In this document: positions 33,925 to 36,689 of the stretch, piece by piece
How positions within the stretch are numbered: the stretch's first letter is position 1
Layout of the letters: each line of letters starts with the position of its first letter
Program-made: the position numbers and the translations under genes
The notes under the pieces: model-generated
What the model was told of the DNA's origin: nothing
The model's input: only the letters and a program-made list of their open reading frames with translations
Databases searched by the model: none
Origin: Bacteroidota bacterium
GTDB taxonomy: Bacteria; Bacteroidota; Bacteroidia; Bacteroidales; M50B96
Assembly (NCBI GenBank): GCA_024762835.1
Contig: JANTGP010000009.1
Coordinates: 1-36,689, forward strand
DNA: 36,689 nucleotides
Direction: 5' to 3'

Positions 33925-33932
33925 TATATTTG
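33925..33932 (+). promoter_or_regulatory. Bacteroidota -7 promoter element (TATATTTG)
   Basis: TAnnTTTG 39 nt before ATG 33972; TTG at 33907-33909 as possible -33. Confidence 0.45.
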
Positions 33933-33971: not shown

Positions 33972-35455
33972 ATGAAAACATTAAATACTTTAATATTATT
34001 AGTATTATTTCTTGGCGGTGACTTAGTCTCTCAAACACAGCTAGTTGAGACAAATACGGGGGGGCAAATACTGACCTCGTAGATATGTGCCGCAGCCATA
34101 CAACAAACAGTTTATTTGCAGTTAGCAATTATGCTGTTGTTAAACTAAACTGGTATAATAATGGTTATGCCGGCTGGACAACCGAAACATTTAATTCAAA
34201 TGGGTTGGCCACACACTGTATTACTATTTCAGACAATAGAGGCGAGGTAGTTGTAGGAGGTGATAACTCAACTATTTATATACGAAATGGCAATCCTCCT
34301 AATGTTTATTACACCCCTTTTCAGGCTGTGCAAAGTGGAGAACCAATTTATTGTCTTGATGCATATGATAATATTATTATAGGTGGAGGTGAAAATGGAT
34401 TGCTCTTTACAGCTGTTTGGGATAATATTGGAAATTCATGGATATTCACCGATTGGTCAACCATTACTAATCTTCATATTTACTCAGTAGCAATAGCACC
34501 AACAGCAACCGGTTACCTTGTTGGAGCTTTTGGCGAAGATGGTTTTAATTATATTTCCGATGACCTTTTTGCAACTCAATTTACAGCACCATTTACTTTT
34601 ACAGGTAATATTAATGGCTCTTATTTTTGTAGTGATGGAACAAATGTAAGCATTGTATTGGGCGGAAATAATGCAGATATATACCAAAGTTTTGATAATG
34701 GCATTACATTTAATCCCGTTACATTTGGAACTTTTGATATACAGAATATTTTAAATAAAGAAACAGACGAAATATTTGTTTGTGGATATAATGCAAACGA
34801 GGTTTATAAAACTGAAAATAATGGTACTACTTGGACACAGATAAATGTGCTAAACACCGAAATTGTAAACGACATAGACTATAATAATGTTTGTAACATT
34901 GTTGGTGTAGGTAATAATAACTGGGCTTATGCAGGTGGATATACACAAACTATTGATTTGCACCAATACTGGAATCGAATGTCAACATATATTCATCCAC
35001 AGTTACCTAATTGTTGGGATGTGTTTGCCCCCTTAGGTACTAATTTAAAAATAGTATATAATGATGATCAACTTGAATTTGATCCAATTAGTGGAACAAA
35101 TACAATAGGTGCAATTGTTGACGGAGAAGGTTATCTGTTATATATTTATAATAATGATGTATTAACAATAAGCGGTGAATTTGTTCCTAATCCTATAATT
35201 GAATTAGACCAACAAGATAATTTCATTGCATATTTACGTACCTATCCAACGCCGGCAGAAGATATATTTGATCAGCTTGGTACAAATTTATTGCAAGCAA
35301 CAGACGAAAATGGAAATGTTTATTATCCCGCATGGATAACTGGTGGAGCAATTTATAACACAATTGGTGATTTGAAACCGGGGAAAGGTTATAATGTTAA
35401 AATAATTAATTTTCCTGACTATATTGATTATTCTGTGCCTTGTGGATGTAACTAA
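33972..35455 (+). CDS. Secreted BNR/YCF48 propeller-like protein with two C-terminal NTIG-type repeats; reading frame interrupted at a G7 tract (34058-34064)
   Basis: ATG 33972 encodes MKTLNTLILLVLFLGGDLVSQTQLVETNTGGQILTS*. Adding one G would join it to ANTDLVDMCRSHTTNSLFAVSNYAVVKL... (ORF 34085-35455). Repeats: DVFAPLGTNLKIV...TNTIGAIVDGEGYLL and DIFDQLGTNLLQA...YNTIGDLKPGKGYNVKI. Confidence 0.75.
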
Positions 35456-35466
35456 AAGCGAATATT

Positions 35467-36645
35467 ATGAAAAATATTATTATTATAATTAGTTTGGTAT
35501 TTGTTTTTATTAATACAAATGCACAACCACCATGGTCTCTTCAGTTTGGTGGCAGTTCATCTAATTTTGCAAGCTATAAAATTCCATTAAACCCAATTAT
35601 GATGGCAACAATAGATGGTTGTATTCTTGATTTCGATACAACTGACTATATGGGTTGTTTTATTGATTCATTGGGCACCGGTAATTTTGTATGTGTAGGA
35701 TATCTAAGATATTATGTTAATAGCGGATTTTCAGTACCTGTTTATGGTAATTATCAAAATCCTTATGGTCAGGATTTTTTCGGACCTTTAAATGGCGATA
35801 CTTTATATTGGCGAATATGGGATGGCTCAGAGCAGAAAGAACATCGTCTTGAAATAGATTCAATTATTTCTTTGATAACTGGTAATCCATATAATGGATA
35901 TTTTTATAATGCCGGACAATCATATGGATTTGTCACAGTTTACATCGAAGGTTTACCCATACCGGATTACACCTTATCACTAGATTGCTATTCTCTTCAT
36001 ATTGATGATAAATCGCTTGAAGGTGCAGAGGTAGAATACTTTTTTGGCGATGGCTTTAGCACATTTGATATCGACCCTTTGCATGATTACACTGCAAACG
36101 GCACTTACGATATAACAATGAGCTACACAAACGAGTGCGGTACGGTTGATACAACTTATCAGGTTGTAATAGATGCTTTTCCTGTTGCAGATTTTAGTTA
36201 TCAGCAAAACAATAGTAATATAGACTTTACTAACCTCTCGGAATGTGGTGAGAGCTATTTGTGGGAGTTTGGCGATACCGATACTTCATCGCTTTTTAAT
36301 GCTAGCCATAATTATTCGACAGGGGTATATTATGTTACCCTAACAACAACAAGCCCCATAGGGCAAGATAACCATGTTGATACTGTTACTATTGTTAATG
36401 GCATTGCCGAGATTGGCTTTGGTCAGAGGATTTATCCCAATCCGGCAAAGGATTTTGTATATATTGAGGGATTAGAGCATAACTCAATTGTCAGATTATT
36501 AGACTGTACAGGAAAGGTTTTACAAGTATTTGATACAGTAGCAGATAAAATTAAAATAGATTTACAGAATTATCCTTCAGGTTTGTATTTTATTGAGATT
36601 GAACGAACTTCGATAGTACAAAAAGTAATATTACTGAAGGAGTAA
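35467..36645 (+). CDS. Secreted PKD-domain protein with T9SS type A C-terminal sorting domain
   Basis: Signal peptide MKNIIIIISLVFVFINTNA; PKD-like VEYFFGDGFSTFDIDPLHDYTANGTYDI and YLWEFGDTDTSSLFNASHNYS; C-term QRIYPNPAKDFVYIEG...YPSGLYFIEIERTSIVQKVILLKE. Confidence 0.9.
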   Translation: MKNIIIIISLVFVFINTNAQPPWSLQFGGSSSNFASYKIPLNPIMMATIDGCILDFDTTDYMGCFIDSLGTGNFVCVGYLRYYVNSGFSVPVYGNYQNPYGQDFFGPLNGDTLYWRIWDGSEQKEHRLEIDSIISLITGNPYNGYFYNAGQSYGFVTVYIEGLPIPDYTLSLDCYSLHIDDKSLEGAEVEYFFGDGFSTFDIDPLHDYTANGTYDITMSYTNECGTVDTTYQVVIDAFPVADFSYQQNNSNIDFTNLSECGESYLWEFGDTDTSSLFNASHNYSTGVYYVTLTTTSPIGQDNHVDTVTIVNGIAEIGFGQRIYPNPAKDFVYIEGLEHNSIVRLLDCTGKVLQVFDTVADKIKIDLQNYPSGLYFIEIERTSIVQKVILLKE

Positions 36646-36663: not shown

Positions 36664-36689
36664 TTAAAATAATTAATTTTCCTGACTAT
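36664..36689 (+). repeat. 26-nt exact direct repeat of 35397-35422, truncated by the window end
   Basis: ttaaaataattaattttcctgactat at both positions. Confidence 0.85.

Follow-up and report, generated by a model that had tools for sequence, protein, structure and literature searches.

A gene for a predicted exported, propeller-like protein of a Bacteroidales genome is split at a G7 run, probably by ordinary slippage

The window analysed here is the entire 36,689-nucleotide contig C9 of a 3.28 Mb draft genome (317 contigs) from a Bacteroidota bacterium; it carries a signal-peptide ORF and a 456-aa ORF which, by sequence comparison, are strongly supported as one gene broken at a run of seven G. 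The break is probably a single-base slippage indel, and the gene, which appears to be dispensable, would encode a secreted, propeller-like protein. The evidence base consists of a single assembly of the lineage and one distant homologue, from the genome designated G087.

A single gene broken at a G run

The signal-peptide ORF (33972..34082, forward strand) is a 36-codon frame running from ATG 33972 to the stop TAG 34080-34082, and is recognised from the sequence, from signal-peptide and coding scores and from the homologue alignment. It encodes the signal peptide MKTLNTLILLVLFLGGDLVSQTQ, with the likely cleavage between LVS and QTQ. The octamer TATATTTG (33925..33932, forward strand), read from the sequence 40 bases 5' of this ATG, is a candidate Bacteroidota −7 promoter element; it matches TANNTTTG, which we take to be the form of that element, and is a prediction. 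The body ORF (34085..35455, forward strand) comprises 456 codons from ATG 34085 and is supported by its translation and by homology. The body frame is closed upstream by TGA 34046-34048 and the signal frame is closed by its TAG; the stop positions thus define a 31-base overlap (34049..34079, forward strand) that is the sole stretch in which both frames are open, so the frame break falls within it. The G7 run (34058..34064, forward strand; phased ACG GGG GGG C in the signal frame) is located inside this overlap, placing a repeat tract at the break as in slipped-strand loci. The original prediction named the promoter-like motif, the start codon, the signal peptide and the G7 run, all of which check out on the sequence at these positions; it also held that one additional G, or two fewer, would join the halves, and this arithmetic is correct according to the stop positions.

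The pairing of the two ORFs is not considered to be due to chance, because a signal-peptide-like score this high is reached by 0.6% of 2,173 random short-ORF ATGs, and an out-of-frame signal peptide overlapping the start of an ORF occurs for this gene alone among 93 long ORFs examined (a set which counts the split gene twice, as the window and as L014). Coding scores change frame at the same place; the signal frame is best over 33972-34057, and the body frame is best over 34049-34084 and beyond. Homologues were searched among 393 genomes of the order, with none from the same genus among the relatives, and the sole clear homologue of the N-terminal part of the body belongs to another family (G087, L084; E 3e-67), with 43% identity to the window gene. 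This homologue contains signal peptide and body in a single frame, MKKLCIFLLFSILSLGMYSQNQYLETNTGSTSVDIVDI, and both halves of the window gene align with it: the signal halves show 47% in the alignment, including SQxQ and ETNTG, and the alignment of the body halves resumes within the next few residues. At the tract, SQNQYLETNTGS followed by TSVDIVDI in G087 aligns with SQTQLVETNTGG followed by ANTDLVDM in the window, the junction being at TNTG; since the two halves align on either side, the frame break of the window gene is placed at the tract. The corresponding site of the homologue reads ACAGGAAGCACTAGT and has no G run. Two scans of contig collections found no relatives. The proposal that a single gene, divided at the G run, encodes both signal peptide and body is therefore backed by the homologue and by the coding statistics, and the lack of a signal of its own in the downstream ORF, also proposed at the outset, is borne out as part of this strongly supported structure.

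The encoded protein and its module family

The protein is predicted to be exported. The N-terminal ~280 aa of the body are BNR/propeller-like; matches to Sortilin/BNR-type models are weak and below cut-off, and together with the sequence pattern they suggest a β-propeller-like part. Structure prediction of the body, made without relatives, gave a pLDDT of 33, which is too poor for use, and a search of solved structures with the body returned no match. The C-terminal ~155 aa form a two-repeat module at 34941-35452 (GWSxISTYIxP ... GWSxxGYLRxxP ... VYWPxxxxNxIGxMxPGxGYQ) that matches no Pfam or NCBIfam model. The module recurs at more than 25 further sites of the same genome (G000), and many copies are present in three related genomes of the family; it is strongly expanded across genomes of the family. 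Where the start of a member can be read, a signal peptide is recognised by eye, and many paralogues extend ~225 residues further to a T9SS-type tail while others stop after the module. The module family thus resembles T9SS cargo proteins of Bacteroidota in having signal peptides and, in most members, a type A-like sorting tail, as does the protein of the next gene; the 456-aa ORF is unlike such cargo in that it ends after the repeat module, with no Por_Secre_tail or other sorting domain, as do a member on contig C23 and several in G002. The T9SS-type tails encoded by the window and by its paralogues would put the genome within Bacteroidota or close to it. Truncation of the 456-aa ORF at its 3' end was considered and dropped, as there are other members of the family with the same end point.

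The next gene (35467..36645, forward strand) begins 11 bases past the stop of the first and encodes a 392 aa protein with its own signal peptide, PKD domains, and a T9SS type A sorting tail. This second gene is flanked by short direct repeats, because the end of the first gene recurs after it; the contig also ends at this point. The repeated stretch, the final 50 bases of the first gene (35397-35446), is found again just past the second gene with 92% identity (L013:52-101, contig C20); there are four differences before the variable end, all synonymous. The start of this second copy is contained in the window (36664..36689, forward strand; identical to 35397-35422) and continues in contig C20.

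G and C tracts across the genome

Pattern search of the genome located 23 G/C runs of at least 7 bases in 3.28 Mb; 23.4 are expected for independent bases and ~64 under a first-order model, the latter expectation being biased upwards as its composition was taken from a tract-enriched sample. The G7 run had initially been said to stand out, a view that does not hold with the genome-wide count at about the chance number. The other 22 runs include 16 in frame within intact ORFs and 6 that are intergenic; none of the 22 is a second gene-breaking run. An in-frame G8 is present near the start of a LeuC/aconitase-like ORF, and two more in-frame G8 runs fall in the motif VDVGGGSTEI, presumably Ppx/GppA-like, and in the motif GGAFGG, which we take to be molybdenum-dehydrogenase-like. 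In an intact 602-aa ORF (TTG start), one further in-frame G8 comes after a lipoprotein-like signal; this is the sole other run placed like the G7 run. A home-made frame HMM was tried as a frameshift background, however it flags mostly normal gene borders and gives no usable rate.

An intergenic repeat of ~130-190 bases has up to 8 matches in the genome (L044:2940-3130, L040, L047, L035, L062, L063, L066), and its G run varies from 6 to 9 between copies (AAATAGATTTAGGGGGGGTAATTTT...GGGCTTTTTGTTATA); the copies are often near contig ends, and the repeat has no match in Rfam. A GTAT tetranucleotide repeat of ~10 units adjoins one copy (L044 about 2840, contig C101, intergenic). G/C runs in G087 reach 11, longer than in the genome of the window, and an intergenic run of nine C precedes the homologous gene by ~170 bases (G087:C181:7967-7975; L084 about 1188-1196).

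Origin of the frame break

A plain frameshifted gene, initially listed as an alternative, fits best, given the open frame of the homologue, the chance number of tracts and the apparent dispensability of the gene. A G run of chance origin would have undergone one-base slippage, leaving the body out of frame with the signal peptide in the sequenced lineage; we infer both the presence of the indel in the DNA itself and its origin by slippage. The consensus gene would be non-functional as a secreted protein, with translation ending at TAG 34080; re-initiation at ATG 34085 could at most supply some body, which would stay in the cytoplasm. The gene appears to be dispensable in a second lineage as well, because the G087 homologue is cut by an insertion-sequence-like repeat: it runs into a 136-base sequence that is present in identical copies (six full, one partial), several of them at contig ends. 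This repeat is probably an insertion-sequence end or another inserted element, the interruption lying at a contig end and resting on the assembly. Strain-level frameshifted genes (homopolymer-indel pseudogenes) likewise have a one-base break at a run in an ORF that is otherwise intact, with an open homologue and an apparently dispensable gene; the window gene differs in showing no further decay. As no stop has yet arisen in the 456 downstream codons, the change is considered to be recent or polymorphic; an undecayed body is, however, also predicted by a reversible switch or by a consensus error.

The same break could represent a phase-variable locus, with secretion turned on and off through slipped-strand mispairing in the G tract and the OFF state captured in the assembly; this is considered unlikely. 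The locus has the expected layout, with the run just past the signal peptide of an exported protein, exactly at the break, and ahead of an undecayed body; as in the poly-G contingency loci of Campylobacter jejuni and Neisseria, the G run is in the 5' part of the gene and the frame is off by one. Unlike those loci, the tract of the window is a single case of length 7, with no variation of length observed in the one assembly compared, the tract number at chance, the other 22 runs breaking no gene, and the relative having no tract at the corresponding site; furthermore, in-frame tracts of equal or greater length occur in metabolic genes of the same genome, such as the G8 of the LeuC/aconitase-like ORF. 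A length of 7 is also short of the usual switching range for G/C (~8 or more), although such ranges come from other species and serve as a guide only. In C. jejuni the switching tracts are mainly G9-G10 (PMC8355987), and for N. meningitidis it is homopolymers of at least 8 that were found to vary in most genomes (PMC5084427). On these grounds the slipped-strand ON/OFF switch originally put forward is unsupported, and a lone phase switch toggling export of the propeller-like protein, with its OFF form assembled, is rather doubtful.

Less probable still is an error of the consensus or the assembly at the G run, with the real gene intact. Homopolymers are a classic site of indel error, and both the undecayed body and the one-base discrepancy are consistent with such an origin; against it, comparison of contig ends shows that contigs C9 and C20 overlap by exactly 77 bases (the last 77 of C9 are the first 77 of C20), and from this one overlap we infer short reads and a de Bruijn assembler with k = 77. 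Homopolymer indels are rare in short-read de Bruijn assemblies. An error is made less likely by these short-read signs together with the 16 other coding G7-G8 tracts of the assembly, all of which are in frame.

Recoding, either by a −1 ribosomal slip on G_GGG_GGG or by RNA polymerase slippage, would yield some secreted protein from unchanged DNA and is highly improbable; the body occupies the −1 frame, and the phase of the run is exactly that of a −1 slippery heptamer (X_XXY_YYZ), as in genes with programmed −1 frameshifting (dnaX, insertion sequences, tail-assembly genes), but unlike in those genes the break comes directly after a signal peptide, no unusual downstream structure is found that could act as a stimulator (folding z = −0.66 over 34065-34140 and z = −0.15 over 34040-34130), and the site is not conserved, as the homologue reads through without it.

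Significance

The split gene is a calibration case: it has the look of a textbook phase switch, yet the genome-wide tract count and one open-frame relative favour an ordinary frameshift. Mixed tract lengths in the reads would instead make the locus a case of phase-variable protein export in an uncultured lineage distant from the pathogens on which most work on such switches has been done.
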